64,000 nucleotides of DNA from Rhodopseudomonas palustris (GTDB lineage: Bacteria > Pseudomonadota > Alphaproteobacteria > Rhizobiales > Xanthobacteraceae). Location: the NCBI RefSeq assembly GCF_013415845.1, contig NZ_CP058907.1:5043501-5107500 (forward strand). Reading direction: 5' to 3'. The number at the start of each line of letters is the position of its first letter. The stretch's first letter is position 1. The position numbers and the translations under genes were made by a program. Shown piece by piece: positions 2 to 11,193 of this stretch. Below the pieces are notes generated by a model. The model was not told where the DNA came from. It saw only the letters and a program-made list of their open reading frames with translations, and made no database searches.

Positions 2-232
2 ACAATCGTCTCGGCGATGCAGCAGATCGCTGACGAACAAGGCTTCAAGGTTCCTGCACTGACGGATGACCTGGTGCTGCACGAGTCGGGCTTCGACTCA
101 CTCGGCTTTGCCGTGCTGGTTGCGCGTCTCGAAGACGAACTCGGCATCGATCCGTTCAGCACAGCTGATGACGCCATCTTTCCGGAGACACTCGGCGACT
201 TCATTGGAGCCTATGAGAATGTCCCCGCGTGA
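2..232 (+). CDS. Acyl carrier protein, 5' end outside window
   Basis: Small acidic carrier protein. The reading frame is open to the window edge, so the true start probably lies upstream; the first ATG in view (17) would give only 71 residues, short for the family. The phosphopantetheine attachment motif is GFDSLGF, with the serine codon at 98-100, followed by the usual acidic helix (ARLEDELGIDPF). The stop overlaps the start of the next gene, an AMP-dependent ligase, by 14 bases, so the two are translationally coupled and the ligase probably loads this carrier. Family assignment is clear from the motif; the acyl group carried is unknown. Confidence 0.85.
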   Translation, partial: TIVSAMQQIADEQGFKVPALTDDLVLHESGFDSLGFAVLVARLEDELGIDPFSTADDAIFPETLGDFIGAYENVPA

Positions 233-1598
233 GATCGTCGCGCTACGCCACTATCTCACCACTGATCTGACCAGCCGTACGCTGTCGGACGCGAGCGATG
301 AGATCGCGTTAGCCGACATCGCGCGTGGGACCTGTTTCGGCGGCAAGCTGCCTGAGCTCGCCGGCTGTTCGGTGCTGTTGTCGCTGTCGACACAGCTCGT
401 CACTGGACTCGCAATGATCGAACTCGACGGCGTGGCGCGGCGGATGCTGCTGTGCCCACCGGACGTCGATATGACCTACGCCGCCGATCTGATCGCGGAT
501 GCGGAGATCGACGCCATCGTGACAGATGCGCCGGAGCGGTGGCAGGACCTCGGCGTCAGCGCCATCGTCACCGCAGGCCTGCCATTGCAGCCTGCGCCCC
601 CTATCGCAGCCACGCATGCCACGTCTTGGTTGATGCTGACCTCCGGCACCACCGGCCGTCCGAAGATCGTCGCGCATACTCTGGCGGCGCTGACCGGTGC
701 GATCGTCGGCGACAACGTCGCAAAGGATGCGTCTCCGATCTGGGCGACCTTCTACGACATCCGCCGCTACGGTGGCCTGCAGATTTTCCTCCGCGCCGTG
801 CTCGGCGGCGGCTCGATGGTGCTCTCCGCGCCCGGCGAAGCAATTGGCGATCATCTGGCACGCCTCGCTGCGCGCGGCGTGACCCACATTTCCGGCACGC
901 CGTCGCATTGGCGCAAGGCACTGATGAATCCGGCGATCGGCGGCTTCCGCCCCAGCTATGTCCGCTTGTCTGGCGAGATCGCCGATCAAGCCGTGCTCGA
1001 CGGTCTGCGCAACGCGTTTCCCGATGCGTCCATCGGCCACGCCTACGCCTCGACCGAGGCCGGCGTCGGCTTTGCGGTGAATGACGGCCGTGAGGGCTTT
1101 CCAGCGTCGCTGATCGGCAACGCGCCCGGCATCACCATGAAAGTGGTCGACGGCTCGCTGCGGATCAAATCGACCCGCACCGCACATACTTACGTCGGCC
1201 GCAGCGCGCCGCCGCTGACGGATGCGGGCGGCTTCGTCGACACCGGCGACATCGTCGAGCTGCGCGAAGATCGTTATTACTTCGTCGGCCGCCGCGACGG
1301 CGTCATCAACGTCGGGGGCCTCAAGGTTCATCCCGAGGAAGTCGAAGCCGTGATCAACCAGCATCCCTCGGTGCGGATGTCGCGGGTGCGGGCGCGTCGC
1401 AGCCCGATCACCGGCGCGCTGGTGGTGGCCGAGGCGGTGCTCGCAAGCGTCGCGGACGCCGGGCGCACTGGAGCAATCCGCGAGGCGATCCTCGCCAATT
1501 GCCGCGCCGCGCTGCCGCCACACAAGGTCCCGGCGTCGATCCGTTTCGTGCAGCAACTCGACGTCACCGCCTCCGGAAAGCTGGCCCGCCATGCGTAA
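219..1598 (+). CDS. AMP-dependent acyl/aryl ligase (ANL superfamily)
   Basis: Adenylate-forming enzyme of 459 residues that should activate a carboxylic acid as acyl-AMP and pass it to CoA or, given its position, to the upstream carrier protein. Visible motifs: the P-loop-like LTSGTTGRPK near residue 141, YASTEAG near 276, DTGD near 341, the hinge/A8 region GRRDGVINVGGLKVHPEE near 360, and the C-terminal catalytic lysine in TASGKL. It is somewhat shorter than typical acyl-CoA synthetases, mainly at the N terminus. I chose the ATG at 219 because it overlaps the carrier-protein stop; a longer frame from 66 would lie within the carrier gene. It overlaps the next gene by 8 bases. Substrate is not predictable from sequence alone. 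Confidence 0.85.
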   Translation: MSPREIVALRHYLTTDLTSRTLSDASDEIALADIARGTCFGGKLPELAGCSVLLSLSTQLVTGLAMIELDGVARRMLLCPPDVDMTYAADLIADAEIDAIVTDAPERWQDLGVSAIVTAGLPLQPAPPIAATHATSWLMLTSGTTGRPKIVAHTLAALTGAIVGDNVAKDASPIWATFYDIRRYGGLQIFLRAVLGGGSMVLSAPGEAIGDHLARLAARGVTHISGTPSHWRKALMNPAIGGFRPSYVRLSGEIADQAVLDGLRNAFPDASIGHAYASTEAGVGFAVNDGREGFPASLIGNAPGITMKVVDGSLRIKSTRTAHTYVGRSAPPLTDAGGFVDTGDIVELREDRYYFVGRRDGVINVGGLKVHPEEVEAVINQHPSVRMSRVRARRSPITGALVVAEAVLASVADAGRTGAIREAILANCRAALPPHKVPASIRFVQQLDVTASGKLARHA

Positions 1599-2322
1599 GG
1601 TGGTGGTGACCGGCGGCAGCCGGGGCATTGGGCTTGCGATCGCACGCCGCCTCGCAGCGGCCGGCTACGACGTGATCGCGGTGGCACGACGCGAGAGTGA
1701 GGAACTCACCGCGGCGATTGCCGAGGCTTCGCAAGGGCCCGGCACGATCAGCTTCAAGGCTTACGATCTCGGCGACATCGACGGCCTGGCCGGCTTCGCC
1801 AAGTCGCTTCGCCAGGAATTCGGCAAGATCTACGGCCTCGTCAACAATGCCGGCATCGGCACCGAGGGCGTGCTCGCGACCATGCACAACAGCCAGATCG
1901 AGACGCTGCTGCGCATCAACGTCACCTCGCCGATCGTACTGACCAAGTACATCGTCCGCCACATGATGGCCGATGGTGCGGGCCGCGTGATCAACATGTC
2001 GTCGATCATCGGCTCGACGGGCTACAACGGACTGTCGGTGTACGGCGCTACCAAGGCCGCGGCGATCGGTTTCACCCGCTCGCTCGCCCGCGAGGTCGGC
2101 CGGCTCGGCATCACCGTCAACGCGATTGCGCCCGGATTCATCGACACAGAATTGACCGCCGGACTCGCTGGCGAAGGCCGCCAGAAGATCGCCGGCCGCA
2201 GCGCGCTGCGCCGCCTGGCGGAAGCCGACGACGTCGCCCAGATGGTCGAATTCCTGCTCGGCGATGGTGGCCGCAACATCACCGGTACGGTGCAGACGAT
2301 CGACGCCGGGAACACGGCGTAG
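1591..2322 (+). CDS. Short-chain dehydrogenase/reductase, FabG-like
   Basis: Classical SDR of 243 residues. The N-terminal nucleotide-binding motif TGGSRGIG is at residues 7-14, the NNAG motif follows near residue 85, and the catalytic Ser (MSSIIGS) and Tyr-X3-Lys (YGATK) are both present. The C terminus contains GNTAxxIDAG-like sequence typical of 3-oxoacyl-ACP reductases. It overlaps the ligase gene by 8 bases, so carrier, ligase and reductase form one operon. Reduction of a keto group on the carrier-bound product is the natural inference. It is a member of a very large family, so the exact reaction is open. Confidence 0.85.
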   Translation: MRKVVVTGGSRGIGLAIARRLAAAGYDVIAVARRESEELTAAIAEASQGPGTISFKAYDLGDIDGLAGFAKSLRQEFGKIYGLVNNAGIGTEGVLATMHNSQIETLLRINVTSPIVLTKYIVRHMMADGAGRVINMSSIIGSTGYNGLSVYGATKAAAIGFTRSLAREVGRLGITVNAIAPGFIDTELTAGLAGEGRQKIAGRSALRRLAEADDVAQMVEFLLGDGGRNITGTVQTIDAGNTA

Positions 2323-2395
2323 GTCGCCGGAATTACTAACCTCTCGTCATTCCGGGGCGCACGCAGCGCGAACCCGGAATGACAATGCAAGACCG
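2323..2395. other. Convergent intergenic gap with short repeat
   Basis: Gap between the converging SDR and aminoacyl-carrier ligase genes. It contains a CATTCCGGG...CCCGGAATG inverted repeat (about 2349-2380) that could act as a bidirectional terminator or be one of the short palindromic elements dispersed in this genome. Confidence 0.5.
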
Positions 2396-3337
2396 TCAGT
2401 CGAGCGACAGCACGTCCCGCACGCTCGCCGGCCACGCGTTGGTATCGATGCCATGGGTCGCGAACAGCGCGACAGCGAGGCGGTCCATGCCGAAGGCGAC
2501 GCAGCCGGTGTGGGCGGGGTTACCGGCCGCATCCTCGATGCCCCAGGTGACGCCGAAATGCTCGCGGTGATAGTTGAAGCTCATGCAGGCGGTCGGCTGC
2601 TCTTCCGAGCGCAGCGGCACCAGCAGTTCGAACTTCAGAGCCTGCTGCTGCTGGCTGATCGCCTTCATCTGGCCGACACGGCCGAAGAACGGATCGGACG
2701 CGGTCTCGACACGGAATGTGAGACCGAGATCTCGCGCGATCGCCTGCGCCTTCACCATCCAGCGCTCGCGGAAGTCAGCGACGTCCTGCGGCGCGCCGAT
2801 GCAGACATATTCCCGCATGCGGAACGACTGCAACCGGTCGAGATGCTTCGACGGTTCGCGGCGGAAGCAATCGGCCGCAACGTCGAAGCGCGCGCCGCCC
2901 GCCGGCAGCGGGCCACGGCTCGCCGCGATCGGATACACCGGATAGCAGGCCGCCGGCGACAATACGAGGTCCGCCGGAGACAGCGAGGTCGTCCAATCGC
3001 CGCCGGCATCGAACCGGCCGACCGCCGCGTTGATCTCCTGTTCGCTGCCATGCAGGCCGCAGACGCATCCGAGCAGATTGGGGAAGCTTTTCAGATAGCC
3101 GGACTTCTCGAGCTGGCTCCGGCTCATCACCGGTGGGAACCGCATCACTTCGGCCCCATCCTCGCGATGCTGCGAGATCAGCGCCGCCAGCTTCTCGACC
3201 ACGCCCTCGTACAGCGCAGTTCGCGCATAGACGCCGTCGGCACCTAGCGTGTGGAACAGGTGCTCAGCCAGGTGATCGAGCGGATCGACCGGATGCAGCT
3301 CGGCCTCGGCCGGTGTGGTGCGGATCGCCATGTTCAT
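2396..3337 (-). CDS. Amino acid:[carrier protein] ligase (class II aaRS-like)
   Basis: Protein of 313 residues related to the catalytic core of atypical archaeal-type seryl-tRNA synthetases but without a tRNA-binding domain. Characterised homologues from Bradyrhizobium and Agrobacterium activate small amino acids and load them onto a dedicated carrier protein. The zinc ligands expected for that family are present at Cys131, Glu176 and Cys279. Class II motif 2 (ADCFRREPS...FRMREYV) and motif 3 (GMDRLAVALF) are visible. The start has a strong AGGAGG site 7 bases upstream. Neighbours on the same strand (acyl-CoA dehydrogenase-like) and the divergent carrier protein at 4967 fit an aminoacyl-carrier pathway. 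The amino acid used cannot be read from sequence. Confidence 0.9.
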   Translation of the reverse strand: MNMAIRTTPAEAELHPVDPLDHLAEHLFHTLGADGVYARTALYEGVVEKLAALISQHREDGAEVMRFPPVMSRSQLEKSGYLKSFPNLLGCVCGLHGSEQEINAAVGRFDAGGDWTTSLSPADLVLSPAACYPVYPIAASRGPLPAGGARFDVAADCFRREPSKHLDRLQSFRMREYVCIGAPQDVADFRERWMVKAQAIARDLGLTFRVETASDPFFGRVGQMKAISQQQQALKFELLVPLRSEEQPTACMSFNYHREHFGVTWGIEDAAGNPAHTGCVAFGMDRLAVALFATHGIDTNAWPASVRDVLSLD

Positions 3338-3371
3338 GAAGCGGCCTCCTCGTTGACGATTGACGGTCGAT

Positions 3372-4601
3372 TCAGTCGCGCAGGCTCGCCGGCACCAGGC
3401 TCATCAGATTGGCGGTGCCAATGTTGGCGAGGATGCGGTCATTGTTGATCATCAGCGGCGCCGACAGCACGTCGCGCAAGTGCCGGCCGAGGGTAAAATC
3501 ACCGTCATTGCGATAACCCGACAGGCCGCAAGCCCGCATCGCGCTCATCACCGTCTCGACCGCGAGTTCGGAGGCTTCGACCTTCAGCAGGTTGATCGAG
3601 GACTGGAAGTCCAGCGAGGTCAGCGCGCGTTCGTCGAATTCGTGCGCAGTGTAGGCGTCGAGATGCGTGGCGATCATCGCCCGCAGCTTGGTCAGCGAGC
3701 GCTTGGCGCTGGTGAAGTGCGCAGCACCCGGCGGCATCTGCCCGCTGGCGCCGCGCGCCGCCTTGCGAACGAACGCCTGCGCCCTTTCCACTGCCGCAGC
3801 AGCGATGCCTGCCCAGGCCGACGACCAGCTGAGATGTGCCACCGGCGTCATCGTCTGCGCATGAATGCGATCGTAGGCCTCTGCAAACACCTGATCGGCA
3901 CGACCGTTGGCGCGCAGCTCGAAGCCGGTGCTGCAGGTGCCGCGCATGCCGAGCGTCTCCCAGCCGAGCGTGGGCGTCAGCGTGTAGTCGTCCTTGGTGA
4001 ACACCACCAGGACCTGATCCGAGGCGCCGGCATCGTCCGCGCGGCGAGCGATCGTCATCACGCCATCGGCTTCGGCACCATAGGAGATCACAGTCGCGTC
4101 GCGCAGCAGAGAGATGCCGGTTTCGGTCCGCGCGATCGCCGCAGCGCTGGAGCGGATGTTGCCGCCGTTGTTGCCTTCGGTGGTCGACGACGCCAACAGC
4201 ATCTGCTCGGCCGCGATCCGCCGCATCAACTGTTCGTGCCAGGCGGAGCCGCGGCCGTGCCGCACCAGGCAGGCCACCTTGGTCTGGTGCATCGCGACGA
4301 TCATCGCGGTGGAGGCGCAGGCGCGCCCGAGCGCGTAGCACATCTCGGCAATGTCGTGGATCGAGGCGCTCTCGCCGCCGAACTCGATCGGAATTTGCGC
4401 GCCGAGCAGACCATATTCGCGCGCCGCATCGATCGCGGCCTTGGGGAACCGCGCCTCGCGATCGACCGATTCCGCATCAGCGGCGGCAATCGCCGCGACG
4501 TGAACCACACGCTGCATCAGCGGCATCGCTTCCGAACCGAATTTGTCGTTGGCCGGCTTAAGGGTGAAGTCGCGAACCACGTTGTCGGTGATGATCGCCA
4601 T
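3372..4601 (-). CDS. Acyl-CoA dehydrogenase-like flavoprotein
   Basis: A 409-residue protein with the acyl-CoA dehydrogenase fold: N-terminal helical domain (AREYGLLGAQIPIEFGG, near 60-75), central beta domain (ASSTTEGNNGGN, and WETLGMRGTCSTGFEL) and C-terminal helical domain (CGLSGYRNDGDFTLGRHLRDVLSAPL). It lies 34 bases upstream of the amino acid:[carrier protein] ligase on the same strand, so the two are probably co-transcribed. In nonribosomal pathways, related flavoproteins oxidise aminoacyl groups while bound to a carrier; that role is inferred here, and an ordinary acyl-CoA substrate is not excluded. Confidence 0.8.
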   Translation of the reverse strand: MAIITDNVVRDFTLKPANDKFGSEAMPLMQRVVHVAAIAAADAESVDREARFPKAAIDAAREYGLLGAQIPIEFGGESASIHDIAEMCYALGRACASTAMIVAMHQTKVACLVRHGRGSAWHEQLMRRIAAEQMLLASSTTEGNNGGNIRSSAAAIARTETGISLLRDATVISYGAEADGVMTIARRADDAGASDQVLVVFTKDDYTLTPTLGWETLGMRGTCSTGFELRANGRADQVFAEAYDRIHAQTMTPVAHLSWSSAWAGIAAAAVERAQAFVRKAARGASGQMPPGAAHFTSAKRSLTKLRAMIATHLDAYTAHEFDERALTSLDFQSSINLLKVEASELAVETVMSAMRACGLSGYRNDGDFTLGRHLRDVLSAPLMINNDRILANIGTANLMSLVPASLRD

Positions 4602-4966
4602 GGCGTCGTGAACTCCCTGTTGCGGACGTTTGCGCTATGTATCGTTCGCGATCGGAATCAGCTCGGCTGCGCCGAGGGGACGATCGCTGCTGGTAGCAAG
4701 CTATGGATTGATCAGGAACACGTCGAGGCGAATTCAAAGTGAATCAATTTGGATTCGAATTGAGGGTTAATCGGACTTTGCCCCGATCGCGAAAACTTTC
4801 GGAATCCCCGTTAGTGTTAAAATTCGAATGAATATGTCGGAAACCGCCACAGCATTGTTTCCGACAGGCAGTTGCGATTACATCATCGCAACGTTGCGAG
4901 CTGTGCCCGTGGACCAAGCGTCCGCAAGCGCGCAGAAGACTTCGAACAGGTCATGGAGATCGCGTC
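4602..4966. promoter_or_regulatory. Divergent promoter region with paired ATTCGAAT palindromes
   Basis: AT-rich (4715-4835) divergent region between the flavoprotein and the carrier protein. The eight-base palindrome ATTCGAAT occurs at 4753-4760 and again at 4822-4829, with further GAATTC/GAATC-type half sites at about 4729-4745. Base composition is clearly lower in GC than the flanking genes. This is a candidate operator for an unidentified regulator. A short frame starting ATG at 4828 crosses into the carrier gene in another frame and is not considered coding. Confidence 0.45.
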
Positions 4967-5239
4967 ATGCAGGCAGGCCCGTCAGCTGCGGTGGAGAACA
5001 AAATCATCACTCTGGTGGAGTCGATCCTGGCGCAGAACAGCCTCGCGGGCGGCATCGCGCGCGACACCACATTCGCCGATGCGGGGCTGACGTCGATGGA
5101 GATGGTCAACCTGATGCTCGCGGTCGAAGCCGAATTCGATATGACGCTGCCCCAGTCGGACATCACGCCGGAGAATTTCACTTCGGCAGCGACCGTCGCG
5201 CAGCTCGTGTTGCGCCGTCAGCACGCCCAGGCCGCTTAG
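4967..5239 (+). CDS. Carrier protein, likely partner of the amino acid ligase
   Basis: Acyl/peptidyl carrier protein of 90 residues. The phosphopantetheine serine is Ser43 in GLTSMEMVNL, with the expected acidic helix II. The GGAG ribosome site sits 8 bases before ATG 4967. It is transcribed divergently from the amino acid:[carrier protein] ligase and acyl-CoA dehydrogenase genes, the arrangement expected of a cognate carrier. It differs from the carrier at the window start (LTSM instead of FDSL), suggesting two carriers with different loading enzymes. Confidence 0.88.
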   Translation: MQAGPSAAVENKIITLVESILAQNSLAGGIARDTTFADAGLTSMEMVNLMLAVEAEFDMTLPQSDITPENFTSAATVAQLVLRRQHAQAA

Positions 5240-5312
5240 TACGGCGACGCCCTTCGCAATCCCGACACGATCCGCATCACAACCGAACAAAACGATCAGC
5301 AGGAGACGCCAG

Positions 5313-5768
5313 ATGCCCAACCACCTGATCCTCACCTCCCGCACCGACGTCGAGCTGAAGCCGGCGCCGATCGAGCCGTCGTGGATCATCGAAGGCAATC
5401 CGGTCGCGACCAACTGCACGCTGTCGCGCAGCACCGATGGCATGGCGTCGACGATTATCTGGCAGTGCACCGAGGGCAAATTCAATTGGCACTACGACAT
5501 CGACGAGACGATCTGCATTCTCGAGGGCTCGGTGGTGATCGAAAGCGCCGGCATGCCGGCGAAGCGCTACGGTCCGGGTGATGTGATCTTCTTCAAGGAC
5601 GGCGCCAGCGCGCGCTGGCATGTCGAAGGCCACATCCGCAAAATCGCGTTCTGCCGCCGCACCCAGCCGCGGCTGGTCGGGTTGGCGGTGCGGGTGTTCG
5701 CCAAGCTTCGCTCGATGTTGCTGCCGTCCGCCAACCGGCCGGCGCAATCGCTGCTCGGTGCAAACTGA
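5313..5768 (+). CDS. Cupin-domain protein
   Basis: A 151-residue single-domain cupin. The beta-barrel motifs are recognisable: WHYDIDETICILEG at about residue 60 and PGDVIFFKDG near residue 91, which resemble the EutQ/DUF861 type of cupin. Only some of the usual metal ligands are obvious (His and Glu in motif 1), so metal binding is likely but unproven. AGGAG lies 8 bases before the ATG. The gene follows the carrier protein on the same strand by 73 bases and ends in a terminator, so it likely belongs to the carrier-protein locus. Its reaction is unknown. Confidence 0.75.
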   Translation: MPNHLILTSRTDVELKPAPIEPSWIIEGNPVATNCTLSRSTDGMASTIIWQCTEGKFNWHYDIDETICILEGSVVIESAGMPAKRYGPGDVIFFKDGASARWHVEGHIRKIAFCRRTQPRLVGLAVRVFAKLRSMLLPSANRPAQSLLGAN

Positions 5769-5809
5769 GCCAATTCCCCATCGCCGCGGCGCAAGGCCGC
5801 ACAAATCAG

Positions 5810-5839
5810 ACGGCGGATCGCGCGGCGGTCCGCCGTTTT
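5810..5839 (+). terminator. Rho-independent terminator after the cupin gene
   Basis: Inverted repeat ACGGCGGA (5810-5817) and TCCGCCGT (5829-5836), followed directly by T residues. It closes the carrier protein-cupin unit. Confidence 0.7.
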
Positions 5840-5865
5840 GGTTCGCCAGCCCTACTGAAGTCGGA

Positions 5866-5879
5866 TTGATTTGACGCAA
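5866..5879. promoter_or_regulatory. FixK/FNR-type box candidate
   Basis: TTGATTTGACGCAA fits the FixK2 pattern TTG(A/C)-N6-(T/G)CAA and lies 66 bases before the start of the DUF2478 gene, a normal spacing for activation. Recognised by pattern only. Confidence 0.4.
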
Positions 5880-5944
5880 AGAAGCATGTTGCGGGTTCTG
5901 GCATGTCCTAAGGCGAAAGTCGCATTTGGGGCAAAGCAGACGCG

Positions 5945-6532
5945 ATGGACTTTTCTCACGGCAAGTCGGGACGACCGTCGATACTCGCAATCGTGTACAC
6001 CGATGGCGCAGCCGCCTGCCGGCTGATGTCGGATCTCGGTCGCCGCTTGCGCGACGCCGGCGTGGTGGTCGCGGGTCTGGTGCCGTATCAGGGCGCGGTC
6101 GACGACGGCAGCCCGCGCTGCGATATGGAAGTCGAGGAGCTGTCCTCCCACTTCATCCTTCAGCTGGCGGAAGAGCGCGGCAAGCAGCCCAACGGCTGCC
6201 GCGTCGATCCGGAAGCCGTGCAGGAAGCCGCCGCTTTAATCGCAGCGTCGTTCCGCAACGCGCCCGAACTGCTGATCGTCAATAAATTCGGTAAGCTCGA
6301 AGCCGATGGCGGCGGCCTCAGCGACGTCATCAGCGACGCCGTGGATCAGGGGATTCCGGTCATCGTCGGCGTTCCTGAGCGACATCTGGCAACGTGGCGC
6401 TGCTTTACCAGCGGCCTGGCCGAAGAAGCGTTGCTCGACTCGCCCCGTATTCAGCAATGGCTGGCCCGCCGCGGCTTCGGCCTCCGGCGCAACACCGTCG
6501 GCCCGCAGCACGTGCTCAACTCGGCGGCGTAA
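5945..6532 (+). CDS. DUF2478 family protein
   Basis: A 195-residue protein resembling the DUF2478 family, small P-loop-NTPase-like proteins often found beside molybdenum transport or nitrogen-fixation genes. The N terminus (ILAIVYTDG) replaces a standard Walker A. The core contains VVVAGLVPYQG, the segment DPEAVQEAAALI, and a LLIVNKFGKLEADGGG strand-loop typical of the family. It stands alone on the plus strand, convergent with fixABCX, and is preceded by a FixK-like box, suggesting microaerobic expression. Function is not established. Confidence 0.7.
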   Translation: MDFSHGKSGRPSILAIVYTDGAAACRLMSDLGRRLRDAGVVVAGLVPYQGAVDDGSPRCDMEVEELSSHFILQLAEERGKQPNGCRVDPEAVQEAAALIAASFRNAPELLIVNKFGKLEADGGGLSDVISDAVDQGIPVIVGVPERHLATWRCFTSGLAEEALLDSPRIQQWLARRGFGLRRNTVGPQHVLNSAA

Positions 6533-6883
6533 GGCGATTGCTGGTTCAGCGCGGCCCTGGCCGTATCTTCGCCGCCCACCGCATACTGGCAGAATCCGAC
6601 AACTAATCGTCATGCCCGCGCTTGTCGCGGGCATCCACGTCTTGAAGACTGCGAAAGATCAAAGACGTGGATGGCCCGGTCGAGCCGGCCACGACAAGTG
6701 GATAAGGGATAGGCTCTGGGCCTCTCCCGCCACGGCTTCACCACCCTCGTCTTAGAAACGCCAATGCCCGGGACAAGCCCGGGCATTGAGTGTTGCGTCA
6801 TGAAGCAAGCATGGCCGAAGCAAATAGCTTCGGCGACGCGGGCTCTCTCACCCGCACGCGCCACCGCCCCGGGCGGTGTTCCC
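6533..6883. repeat. Intergenic palindromic repeats (ATGCCCGSG family)
   Basis: Gap between convergent genes, filled with short palindromes. A copy at 6612-6634 pairs ATGCCCGCG with CGCGGGCAT, and one at 6762-6788 pairs CAATGCCCGGG with CCCGGGCATTG. Between them is a degenerate copy (ATGGCCCGGTCGAGCCGGCCA at about 6670). The same family recurs near 25052-25135, 38374-38396 and 40396-40416. No coding gene is convincing here. The palindromes may also terminate both convergent transcripts. Confidence 0.7.
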
Positions 6884-7180
6884 TCAGCCGAACTTGAACA
6901 GCACGCCGTAGCCGCCGCGCGGGTAGCTCCACTCGATGTCGCCGCCACCTTCGGCGAGCACCCGGCAGGTGCCGCATTCGACGCAGCCGTCCGGCGTCAC
7001 TTCGACCTGTCCGTTACTGTTCAGCTCGTAGCAGTGCGCCGGGCACACTTTCAACAGCGCCAGCAGTTGCGGCGATGGCTTGGTGTGGGGCTTGACCTTG
7101 ATGTGGGCGTTGCCGACGTCGACCAGATAGCGGTTCTGATACAGCTTGTCTTCGACGCGAACCGGGGCTTCCGTTGTCAT
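6884..7180 (-). CDS. fixX: FixX ferredoxin-like protein
   Basis: A 98-residue ferredoxin-like subunit of the FixABCX electron-bifurcating complex. Cysteines for one 4Fe-4S cluster are visible in CPAHCYEL and [10 protein letters not shown]. The N-terminal sequence ([13 protein letters not shown]) is typical of FixX and its ETF-QO relatives. It is the last gene of the fixABCX unit, 33 bases after fixC. In the complex FixX receives electrons from FixC and should pass them to the ferredoxin or flavodoxin that reduces NifH. Confidence 0.95.
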
Positions 7181-8533: not shown

Positions 8534-9640
8534 TTAGCTCGCGATCCGGTCGCGGGTGTGCGCAGACAGCCGTTTGCGGAATGCTTCGGTCAGCGCCGGC
8601 AGCAGCCGGATCGCATCGGTGACGAGAGCGAGATGGGCAAAGTCGAAGATCGGCGCGTTCTTGTCGGTGTTGATCGCGACGATCAGGTCGGAGCCGTCGA
8701 CGCCGACGCGGTGCTGAATCGCGCCCGAGATGCCGGCCGCAATGTACAGCTTCGGCCGGATAGTCTTGCCGGTCTGGCCGATCTGGCGGTCGGCCGACAC
8801 CCAGCCCTTCTGCACCAGCGGCCGCGAACAGCCGTATTCGGCGCCGAGCACGCCGGCGAGCTGGCGCACCAGCTGGAAGTTCTCCGGCGAAGCAAGCCCG
8901 AGGCCGCCGGCCACCACGATATCGGCATAAGCGAGGTTCGAGGTCGCCTTGTCGCGATCCGGCACGAAGGCCAGGATCTTGGTGACGATATCGGCTTCGA
9001 CCAAACCGAGCGGAAATTCGATGACACGGCCGACCGGCTTTTCGACCCGATCGGGCATCGACATCACGCGCGGCCGTACGGTCGCCATCTGCGGTCGGAA
9101 GTTGAGCGTGTAGATCGTGCAGAGCAGCGAGCCGCCGAAGGTCGGACGGGTCGCGGCGAGCGAATTGTCGGAGTCGACCTCAAGCTCGGTGCAGTCTGCG
9201 GTCAGGCCGGTGAGCAGCGTGGTCGCCACTGCGCCGGCGAGGTCGCGGCCGAGCGTGGTGGCACCGAGCAGCAGGATCTCCGGCTTGTGGGTGTTGACGA
9301 GATCGGTCAGCGCCTTGGTGTAGGACTCGTTGCGATAGTCCGTCAGCACGTCGTCGGCGACGACGTAGGCAAGATCAGCGCCGTAGCAGAACGACTCGGC
9401 GACCGCAGCCTTGGTGGCATCGCCGGTCGGGCCGATCACCACCGCGGCGAGCTCGACGCCGAGCTTGTCGGCGAGCCGCCGGCCGGAGCCCATCAGTTCC
9501 CAGGAGACGGGGTGAACGTGACCACGCTCCTGCTCGATGAACACCCAGACGTGCTTATAGGCTTTGAAATGCTCGGGCAGCTCCTTCTTGGCGGCGGCGC
9601 GTCCGGCGGGCTGCGGGGCAGGCTTGGCGGGCTGGCTCAT
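8534..9640 (-). CDS. fixB: FixB, electron-transfer flavoprotein alpha subunit
   Basis: A 368-residue ETF-alpha homologue that pairs with FixA. The N-terminal segment after a short Ala/Pro linker contains [11 protein letters not shown] and a domain I core. The C-terminal FAD-binding region reads [37 protein letters not shown] and [11 protein letters not shown], all typical of ETF-alpha. It lies 24 bases after fixA. The protein holds the FAD involved in electron bifurcation from NADH in characterised FixABCX systems. Confidence 0.95.
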
Positions 9641-9664
9641 CGAAGCGGCTCTCTGTTCGGGTTG

Positions 9665-10510
9665 TCAGAATCCGCGCGCCAGCTCGAACATTTCGTTCTC
9701 GAGCTTGGGCCGGAGCTTGAAGATTTCGTCGATCAGCGCTTCCGCCGGCGGCTGGCCGGCGGCCTCGACCACCTTGGCCTTCTCGGCGCGCGGGGTGGGT
9801 GCGAACACGCGCTTCACCACCGTCGGCGAACCGCGGAGGCCGCACTTCTGGATGTCCTCGACGCCGGCATCCTGCGCGCTCCACTTCACCACTTCGGCGC
9901 GGGCGGCATTCAGCGCGTTGATCATCGAGCCGCGGCGCACCTGATTGGTGCCTTCCAGCATCGTGATCAGGCAGGGCAGATTGCTGCGCAGCACCTGCAC
10001 GCCGCCTTCGGAGCGGCGCTCGACTTCAATGGTGCGAGCGTCGAGGTCGAGCGATGAGACCTTCGAGACATAGGTCAGCTGCAGGAAGTCGAGCCGCTTG
10101 CAGATGCCGGGGCCGACCTGGGCGGTGTCGCCGTCGATGGTCTGCTTGCCGGTGAACACCACGTCGACAGCACCGAAGGTGGAGCCGATCTTGCGGATCG
10201 CGGCGGCGAGCGCGTAGCTGGTCGCCAGCGTGTCGGAGCCGGCGAAGAACCGATCGGTCAGCAGCACGGCGCGGTTGGCGCCGATGGTCAGCGCCTTGCG
10301 CAAGGAATCTTCCGCGGTCGGCGGGCCCATCGTCAGCACCGTGACTTCGCCGCCGAACTTGTCGCGCAGCCGCAGCGCCTCTTCGAGCGCGAACAGATCG
10401 TAGGGATTGATGATCGTCGGCACGCCCTGGCGCATGATCGTGTTGGTGACCGGATGCACACGGATCTGGGCCGAGTCCGGAACCTGCTTGATACAGACGA
10501 CGATATGCAT
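9665..10510 (-). CDS. fixA: FixA, electron-transfer flavoprotein beta subunit
   Basis: A 281-residue ETF-beta homologue beginning MHIVVCIKQVPDS, the conserved N terminus of the family. The ATG at 10510 is preferred over a longer frame from 10609 because it matches the family start, has GGAG about 8 bases upstream and falls just after the sigma-54 promoter at 10558-10577. The family core FTGKQTIDGDTAQVG is present near residue 120. It is first gene of fixABCX, whose proposed job is NADH-driven reduction of ferredoxin for nitrogenase. Confidence 0.95.
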   Translation of the reverse strand: MHIVVCIKQVPDSAQIRVHPVTNTIMRQGVPTIINPYDLFALEEALRLRDKFGGEVTVLTMGPPTAEDSLRKALTIGANRAVLLTDRFFAGSDTLATSYALAAAIRKIGSTFGAVDVVFTGKQTIDGDTAQVGPGICKRLDFLQLTYVSKVSSLDLDARTIEVERRSEGGVQVLRSNLPCLITMLEGTNQVRRGSMINALNAARAEVVKWSAQDAGVEDIQKCGLRGSPTVVKRVFAPTPRAEKAKVVEAAGQPPAEALIDEIFKLRPKLENEMFELARGF

Positions 10511-10557
10511 GGAGTGGCTCCGCGCTTGCTGACAGAAGCTTGACGACGGAGACTTAT

Positions 10558-10577
10558 GAGCAAGCCTCGTACCAACT
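10558..10577 (-). promoter_or_regulatory. Sigma-54 promoter of fixABCX
   Basis: On the minus strand the element reads TGGTACGAGGCTTGCT. GG (10573-10572) and GC (10561-10560) have the invariant ten-base spacing. The predicted start of transcription is about 40 bases before fixA. Confidence 0.85.
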
Positions 10578-10678
10578 TTTCCAGCGTGGAGAATATCGCG
10601 GCAAACCAATCACTTGCGACGAGAGGCCGGGATTGTTACCGGCGCTTCCGAGGGTTGCAATCCGACAACTCCGACACT

Positions 10679-10694
10679 TGTCGGGAAGGCGACA
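10679..10694. promoter_or_regulatory. NifA upstream activator site for fixA
   Basis: TGT (10679-10681), ten bases, ACA (10692-10694), an exact TGT-N10-ACA match. It lies about 130 bases before the predicted transcription start of fixA. Confidence 0.8.
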
Positions 10695-10783
10695 GCGGCG
10701 TGACCGACCAGACATTTCACGCCGCAGTGAGATCGCCCGCCAAACACGACATGGATGTGAGAAAATGAGTCTGGCAGGCGCGG

Positions 10784-10815
10784 CAAAACGGCCCGCCGCG
10801 AACGCGACGGGCCGT
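10784..10815 (-). terminator. Terminator after nifW
   Basis: Inverted repeat ACGGCCCG (10788-10795) and CGGGCCGT (10808-10815); read on the minus strand the stem is followed by TTTTG. It separates the hesB-nifUSVW operon from fixABCX. Confidence 0.75.
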
Positions 10816-10842
10816 CGATAGCAGGGCGCAAGGGGCGCGCGG

Positions 10843-11193
10843 TTACTTCAGTGCGTCGAGCGGGACGAAGGCCGGGCGCTTCGGCGTCTTCGGCGCCACC
10901 GCGTCCTTCAGCACCTTGAACACCCGTTGATCGAGCGGCGAGGAAGCCACGAAGTCGGCATAGGCCCGCTCCAGCACCGCCTTGCAACGGGCGGAGGCTT
11001 CGTCGCCCGGCAGATGCTCGAGATCTTCGCCGGCGAGATACTGGCCCATGCGCCGGAGGATGTGCAGCCGTGCGACGTTGAGCAGCTTCGGATCGTAGGC
11101 AACGCCGAGAAGCTCGAAGAACTCCTCGGCGGATCCGGCACTCTGCAGCCGGGCGACGATGTCGACGGGTTCGGTGACGGCGGATGTGCTCAT
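10843..11193 (-). CDS. nifW: NifW, nitrogenase-stabilising protein
   Basis: A 116-residue NifW. Family sequence is clear: SAEEFFELLGVAYDPKLLNVARLHIL and GDEASARCKAVLERAYADF. NifW is reported to protect or assist maturation of the MoFe protein against oxygen; the exact mechanism is unsettled. I took ATG 11193, preceded by AAGGAG, instead of a longer frame to 11271 that would overlap nifV. It is the last gene of hesB-nifUSVW and is followed by a terminator. Confidence 0.92.
   Translation of the reverse strand: MSTSAVTEPVDIVARLQSAGSAEEFFELLGVAYDPKLLNVARLHILRRMGQYLAGEDLEHLPGDEASARCKAVLERAYADFVASSPLDQRVFKVLKDAVAPKTPKRPAFVPLDALK

Follow-up and report, generated by a model that had tools for sequence, protein, structure and literature searches.

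Amino acid:[carrier protein] ligases, a family known since 2010, still have no assigned role. Members of this family load glycine or alanine onto carrier proteins (PMC5370406), and a 2022 review calls their biological role unknown (PMC9437257). For the Atu2574 neighbourhood of Agrobacterium, Iyer and Aravind predicted that the aminoacyl group is oxidised and attached to a surface sugar (PMC2922099). A second member, Bll0957 of Bradyrhizobium, lies near a carrier gene and a gene for an acyl-CoA dehydrogenase (ACAD)-fold protein, bll0958. Our search of the open-access literature found no pathway assigned to Bll0957 and no paper assigning an end product, in agreement with an earlier, first-pass annotation of the DNA studied here. 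That DNA, referred to below as the window, is a stretch of 64,000 nucleotides of the phototrophic, nitrogen-fixing bacterium Rhodopseudomonas palustris (positions 5043501-5107500 of a single 5.32 Mb contig), and its positions 2 to 5768 carry a ligase of the Bll0957 type beside genes for two stand-alone carrier proteins.

The ligase gene (2396..3337, minus strand) encodes 313 amino acids forming a single tRNA-synt_2b catalytic domain without a tRNA-binding domain. Residues 1-312 align with Bll0957 (PDB 3mey) at an E value of 1.8e-181, and the protein scores 481.6 bits against NF005479, for which the cut-off is 357. The three zinc ligands noted in the first-pass annotation, C131, E176 and C279, are all present and are invariant (11 of 11) when the window's sequence is aligned with those of ten relatives. 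Judged by its sequence, the enzyme is an orthologue of Bll0957, and we refer to such ligases as type I. The annotation had an amino acid loaded onto one of the carriers; this is probably glycine, the substrate assigned to Bll0957, given the orthology. The locus resembles that of Bll0957 in having a carrier and an ACAD-fold gene nearby, but in Rhodopseudomonas an acyl branch, a GNAT protein, FadD and MetA/MetY adjoin the ligase as well. The cluster is real, conserved and larger than first reported, and it places a known enzyme family in a new gene context. We consider it slightly more likely than not that it is a dedicated biosynthetic cluster of about twelve genes with two stand-alone carriers, the product being a small acylated amino acid metabolite.

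All seven genes of the first-pass annotation were found in the window at the positions it gave. On the plus strand, the acyl branch begins with carrier protein 1 (ACP1; 2..232; PF00550, 27.7 bits), whose phosphopantetheine serine lies in GFDSL and whose start codon probably precedes the window by about 14 bases, at contig position 5043487. ACP1 overlaps by 20 bases, if the downstream start is at 213, with an AMP-dependent ligase of about 460 amino acids (213..1598, ATG at 213 or 219), which has PF00501 and PF13193, the motif TSGTTGRPK and a C-terminal GK, and is predicted to acylate ACP1. An 8-base overlap then leads to a FabG-like short-chain dehydrogenase/reductase (SDR; 1591..2322; PF00106/PF13561) with YxxxK at residue 151 (YGATK), whose best NCBIfam match is a 3-oxoacyl-ACP reductase, with a score below that family's cut-off. 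On the minus strand, the flavoprotein (3372..4601; PF02771/PF00441) adjoins the amino acid ligase, as annotated, at a distance of 34 bases. Carrier protein 2 (4967..5239, plus strand), near the ligase and the presumed glycine acceptor, matches PF00550 at 31.2 bits and NF005480 (PRK07081) at 42.7 bits, under the cut-off of 72; it had been called divergent, and its phosphopantetheine serine indeed sits in LTSM, where DSx is usual. A small cupin (5313..5768, plus strand; PF05899) follows.

Co-occurrence across genomes ties the acyl branch to the glycine branch. In an order-level sample of 397 genomes, for which the type-I cut-off of 58% identity was chosen after seeing a gap between 58% and 54%, a type-I ligase occurred in 24 genomes and the AMP ligase in 26, namely those 24 plus G385 and G448 (Fisher p 1.7e-36, although genomes from the same lineage do not count as independent). 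Counted by genus, both were present in 8, the ligase alone in 0, the AMP ligase alone in 2 and neither in 132 (p 1.3e-11). Tandem GNAT genes (E below 1e-30) were found in exactly the same 26 genomes as the AMP ligase when the lists were compared by eye. By contrast, among the 64 genomes whose ligase is of type II (46-54% identity), only G448 had the AMP ligase, and within one genus (g128) the four type-I genomes had it whereas the three type-II genomes did not. A family-level sample of 198 genomes contained 22 with both, one with the ligase only (G068, 66% complete), two with the AMP ligase only (G114 and G115) and 173 with neither. AMP-ligase matches in G490 (42%, 1e-82), G557 (41%, 7.6e-66) and G095 (38%, 6e-50) were taken to belong to other families, twelve GNAT matches at 1e-20 to 1e-28 (25-31% identity) were likewise left out, and five ligase matches at 33-35% identity were counted as neither type I nor type II.

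Because all 24 type-I genomes hold both the AMP ligase and the tandem GNAT, as against the AMP ligase in 1 of 64 type-II genomes, the two halves very probably belong to a single pathway. The first-pass annotation had named a lack of linkage between the halves in most relatives as the finding that would speak against this. They do lie within about 10 kb on one contig in only 11 of the 24 genomes, being far apart on one contig in 3 and on different contigs of drafts in 10, but both are present in every one; physical linkage thus gives a mixed answer, whereas the link in function is strong. In seven Bradyrhizobium-group genomes the FadD-ACP1-AMP ligase-SDR group sits apart (ACP1 was not called in one), while GNAT, ligase, flavoprotein and carrier 2 remain together. 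G385 keeps the AMP ligase, SDR, FadD and GNAT and has no ligase match; since the GNAT tracks the AMP ligase even there, carrier 1 is the likelier GNAT donor.

We also surveyed gene neighbourhoods in 142 fetched loci by tblastn, with identity cut-offs set by hand for each family. The initial gene calls on these stretches came from a home-made codon-score caller, which missed genes (it called none in L149 and overlooked G385's GNAT); the main counts given here therefore come from tblastn. A type-I ligase, here defined by at least 57% identity, was present in 113 loci, accompanied by the flavoprotein in 110 and by carrier 2 in 105. Dereplication by ligase identity at 85% left 52 loci, of which 32 were at least 15 kb long. 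Among these 32, we found MetY in 25, the SDR in 23, the AMP ligase in 22, ACP1 in 21, MetA and the GNAT in 20 each, FadD and an alpha/beta hydrolase in 19 each, the aminotransferase in 10, the cupin in 9, a thiamine pyrophosphate enzyme in 8 and DUF1839 in 0. These neighbourhoods recur across records labelled alpha-, beta- and gammaproteobacterial, and a comparison of 43 loci chosen by eye for diversity showed that their gene order is shuffled. A contig scan yielded 80 named loci out of 590 confirmed relatives among the matches listed. The first-pass annotation had proposed looking for all seven genes in related genomes; all seven other same-genus loci fetched have them grouped, with relative order and orientation preserved. 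The genus as a whole has the ligase in 8 of 11 genomes (family sample) and a close flavoprotein orthologue in 13 of 16.

Some type-I loci contain further genes. A SnoaL-like gene lies near the ligase in thirteen of them, mostly labelled gammaproteobacterial (L108, L114-L118, L120-L122, L124, L127, L133 and L139), and a pyridoxal phosphate (PLP) decarboxylase was seen in eleven loci. Together, the SnoaL-like gene and the PLP decarboxylase suggest a product variant.

These comparisons split the amino acid:[carrier protein] ligases into two gene contexts. Of the 60 ligases that entered a tree after dereplication of 120, 36 were linked to a GNAT or AMP ligase, 3 to DUF1839 and 21 to neither in the stretch available; the GNAT-/AMP-ligase-linked and DUF1839-linked ligases fell on opposite sides of a branch with 100/99 support, with only three rows representing the latter. 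In the type-II loci L061-L066 and L163, an ACAD-fold protein, the ligase, DUF1839 and a GH2-like glycosidase stand in a row, preceded by a carrier that was not called in two of them. DUF1839 was absent from all 113 type-I loci, the window's included (tblastn), and no labelled match to the GH2-like glycosidase was found among the called genes of 79 named loci (L070-L148) or in the window cluster. Conversely, nine loci fetched for ligases of other types (eight at 45-49% identity, one at 29%) gave no match at 1e-5 in tblastn to the acyl branch, GNAT, MetA/MetY, aminotransferase or cupin. The Atu2574 neighbourhood shares a ligase, a carrier and a redox enzyme with the window cluster but has DUF1839, a family classed as papain-like (PMC10318531), and a glycosidase, whereas the window cluster has neither and instead has a tandem GNAT and a second carrier. 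The DUF1839 and GH2-like kind fits the surface-sugar hypothesis; in the window's kind, a GNAT and an acyl branch take the place of these genes. The Bll0957 type gains a concrete set of partners: AMP ligase, tandem GNAT, second carrier, FadD and an extra MetA/MetY pair.

The larger cluster starts about 6 kb before the window, with five more conserved genes at contig positions 5037196-5043386 that the first-pass annotation, confined to the window, had missed. Its seven genes are real, but the set was incomplete: upstream lie a MetA-like gene (PF04204), a MetY-like gene (PF01053), a FadD-type ligase, a class IV aminotransferase that overlaps the FadD gene by 4 bases, and, just upstream of the window, a gene for a protein of 294 amino acids. 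The MetY orthologue of the cluster occurs at 88-98% identity in 12 other genomes of the genus, and because each of the 16 genus genomes also has MetY paralogues at 50-53% identity, the cluster metY is a separate, non-housekeeping copy. The 294-amino-acid protein has no match in Pfam or NCBIfam. A model of a homologue that is 94% identical to it (mean pLDDT 78.7, pTM 0.54), searched with Foldseek, matched GNAT structures, tandem ones included, with a best E value of 2.9e-9 and a TM score of about 0.4; the model thus points to a tandem-GNAT fold. The usual CoA-binding loop of GNAT proteins is RxxGxG/A, and the corresponding position here reads RxYAxL. The first-pass annotation had the loaded amino acid joined or reduced with an acyl group from the second carrier. 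The second carrier module very probably does belong to the same pathway, but the likely joining enzyme is this GNAT, which lies outside the window.

The ACAD fold of the flavoprotein (model pLDDT 85.3) is supported by Pfam, sequence and structure matches. It carries A255, I385 and N387, so the canonical catalytic glutamate is missing at both the medium-chain acyl-CoA dehydrogenase (MCAD)-type and the isovaleryl-CoA dehydrogenase (IVD)-type positions. These positions were assigned from HMMER alignments and the motifs usual in the family; a literature search on the catalytic bases turned up no paper in support. Residue 385 is Ile or Val and residue 255 is Ala or Ser in 16 of 16 rows of set A2 and 30 of 30 rows of set A5, some rows being shared or near-identical. 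Because neither canonical base is present, a dehydrogenation reading of the flavoprotein is not supported, and the earlier statement that it oxidises the loaded amino acid fails if dehydrogenation was meant. Its best sequence and structure matches include the nitrososynthases KijD3 and DnmZ and DszC-type flavin monooxygenases, and the protein may, on the strength of its residues and matches, be monooxygenase-like; matches to dehydrogenases are, however, equally good. A PF01613 flavin reductase, the partner of Group D monooxygenases and nitrososynthases, was found in only 4 of 142 loci (L135, L144, L166 and L170) and not in the window cluster. AnaB and ColB1 are also among the matches. These carrier-bound amino acid oxidases use the ACAD fold on aminoacyl-carrier substrates, as proposed here, but by their entry titles they act on Cys or Pro, and glycine is without a beta carbon. 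Where the canonical glutamates would stand, the window flavoprotein has Ala and Ile, a comparison with ColB1 and AnaB that covers the window side alone.

The cluster can be arranged into a pathway whose steps would run as follows. The Bll0957-type ligase would adenylate glycine and load it onto carrier 2, as has been shown for family members, and the flavoprotein would then oxidise the carrier-bound glycyl group, more likely by monooxygenase- or amine-oxidation-type chemistry than by classical alpha,beta-dehydrogenation. In the other branch, the AMP ligase would place a carboxylic acid on carrier 1, the SDR would adjust that acid, and FadD may supply or pre-activate acyl groups. The tandem GNAT would move a carrier-bound acyl group onto an amine and so join the branches, much as SbzI and FeeM do; this assignment is suggested by the GNAT's co-occurrence and its motif. 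The RxYAxL loop and the presence of the GNAT in the same 26 genomes as the AMP ligase bear only indirectly on whether its donor is acyl-ACP or acyl-CoA. Finally, the MetA/MetY pair and the aminotransferase could provide an amino acid unit derived from homoserine. SB-203208 biosynthesis is an established case of GNATs fed by carriers in a pathway that has a pair of adenylating enzymes and a pair of carriers (PMC6331615). The altemicidin/SB-203208 (sbz) cluster resembles the present one in having two adenylating enzymes, two stand-alone carriers, carrier-fed GNATs, a cupin and a protein like an aminoacyl-tRNA synthetase (PMC6331615), but that protein is IleRS-like and uses tRNA, and the likeness is one of logic, drawn from the description of the system. 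What had been a vague unknown metabolite has in this way become a pathway that can be tested in workable bacteria, Rhodopseudomonas and Bradyrhizobium.

The first-pass annotation placed the cluster beside the nif island. This is true within the genus, where fixX lies within about 6 kb of the cupin in all seven other loci fetched, but neither fixX nor fixC was found near the cluster in the loci fetched from outside it. One related genome, G125, is without the ligase, the AMP ligase and a close flavoprotein orthologue. At the corresponding locus (L160, G125:C1:3933000-3952999, about 8852-10920), a full-length metA is followed by a metY remnant of about 110 codons and then by the cupin, DUF2478 and intact fix genes, while the locus no longer contains the GNAT, FadD, the aminotransferase or either carrier. 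This is most simply explained by one deletion with breakpoints inside metY and just before the cupin, and because G125 keeps the fix/nif region, the cluster is dispensable for keeping that region. Control by nif regulators or FixK was considered and rejected: sigma-54 sites (3 against 7.9 expected) and FixK sites (1 against 1.0) were not enriched, and the four NifA-type sites (1.8 expected, with 4 reached in 17 of 200 shuffles) are all located within open reading frames. In a Bradyrhizobium diazoefficiens mutant of phaR, whose product regulates polyhydroxybutyrate (PHB), bll0957 and bll0958 RNA rose 3.0-fold under microoxic conditions and the proteins rose by log2 values of 2.5 and 1.7 (PMC10888616). 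The same raised list contains metZ (bll1105) and a branched-chain aminotransferase (bll7459), which may be orthologues of the cluster genes, and the binding tests named in that study concerned other promoters (PMC10888616).

Several other explanations can be set against a dedicated acylated amino acid pathway. The one we take most seriously, though we still think it rather unlikely, is an N-acylglycine or glycine-lipid pathway in which the GNAT would put a (hydroxy)acyl group from the ACP onto glycine, the flavoprotein and MetA/MetY being accessory or belonging to another branch. The combination of SDR, FadD, AMP ligase, ACP and GNAT does resemble FeeM and aminolipid N-acyltransferase systems (PMC11631085). 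In G385 the AMP ligase, SDR, FadD and GNAT persist without the amino acid ligase, as this explanation would allow. The glycine-lipid N-acyltransferases described so far, however, are known to use free glycine, which would leave the glycine-carrier system and the flavoprotein of 110 of 113 loci unexplained; no O-acyltransferase appeared among the named families, although no search was aimed at one. A bolder version of the dedicated pathway, which we regard as a long shot, is that the cluster represents a widespread, undescribed class of natural product: carrier-tethered glycine would be oxidised at its nitrogen or alpha carbon by a nitrososynthase-like flavoprotein, and the tandem GNAT would link the result to the acyl-ACP branch and to a homoserine-derived unit made by MetY. 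The cupin might assist N-oxide or N-N chemistry in this scheme, and the product in Bradyrhizobium would be a low-oxygen metabolite under PhaR control.

The transfer of an oxidised aminoacyl group from carrier 2 to the amino group of a cell-surface sugar has the merit of being the published prediction for the ligase family (PMC2922099), and glycosyltransferase- and flippase-like genes, named by eye, do occur further upstream in the R. palustris genome. We nevertheless judge it improbable for this cluster, since the predicted transferase, DUF1839, is missing from every type-I locus and follows the ligase, with the GH2-like glycosidase, in the seven type-II loci named above, and DUF1839-linked ligases (three rows) lie across the well-supported branch of the tree. 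That the two gene groups are unrelated and became neighbours by chance in Rhodopseudomonas would suit the 13 of 24 genomes in which they are more than about 10 kb apart or on different draft contigs; it is very hard to reconcile with co-occurrence in all 24 ligase-bearing genomes of the order sample and in 22 of the 23 of the family sample, contrasts within genera included, and with clustering that recurs in shuffled order. Least credible of all is a true dehydrogenase that feeds electrons to FixABCX and hence nitrogenase. The adjoining fixX-fixC genes in the seven other same-genus loci invite this idea, but the flavoprotein lacks both canonical bases, fixX and fixC were not found beside the cluster in the loci fetched from other genera, G125 retains fix/nif without it, and the regulatory sites gave no encouragement.

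A few minor observations concern the surroundings of the cluster. Between it and fixX lies a DUF2478 gene (5945-6532; PF10649), which was found in all seven other same-genus loci and is kept in the deleted relative too. In R. infernalis (L043, about 2600-7000), four extra genes were called between fixX and DUF2478 that were not called there in other Rhodopseudomonas loci. Elsewhere in the R. palustris genome, at contig positions 3672933-3681210 (L009), a PP-binding search matched frames of 2,684 and 645 amino acids, which suggests genes of the nonribosomal peptide synthetase or polyketide synthase type.

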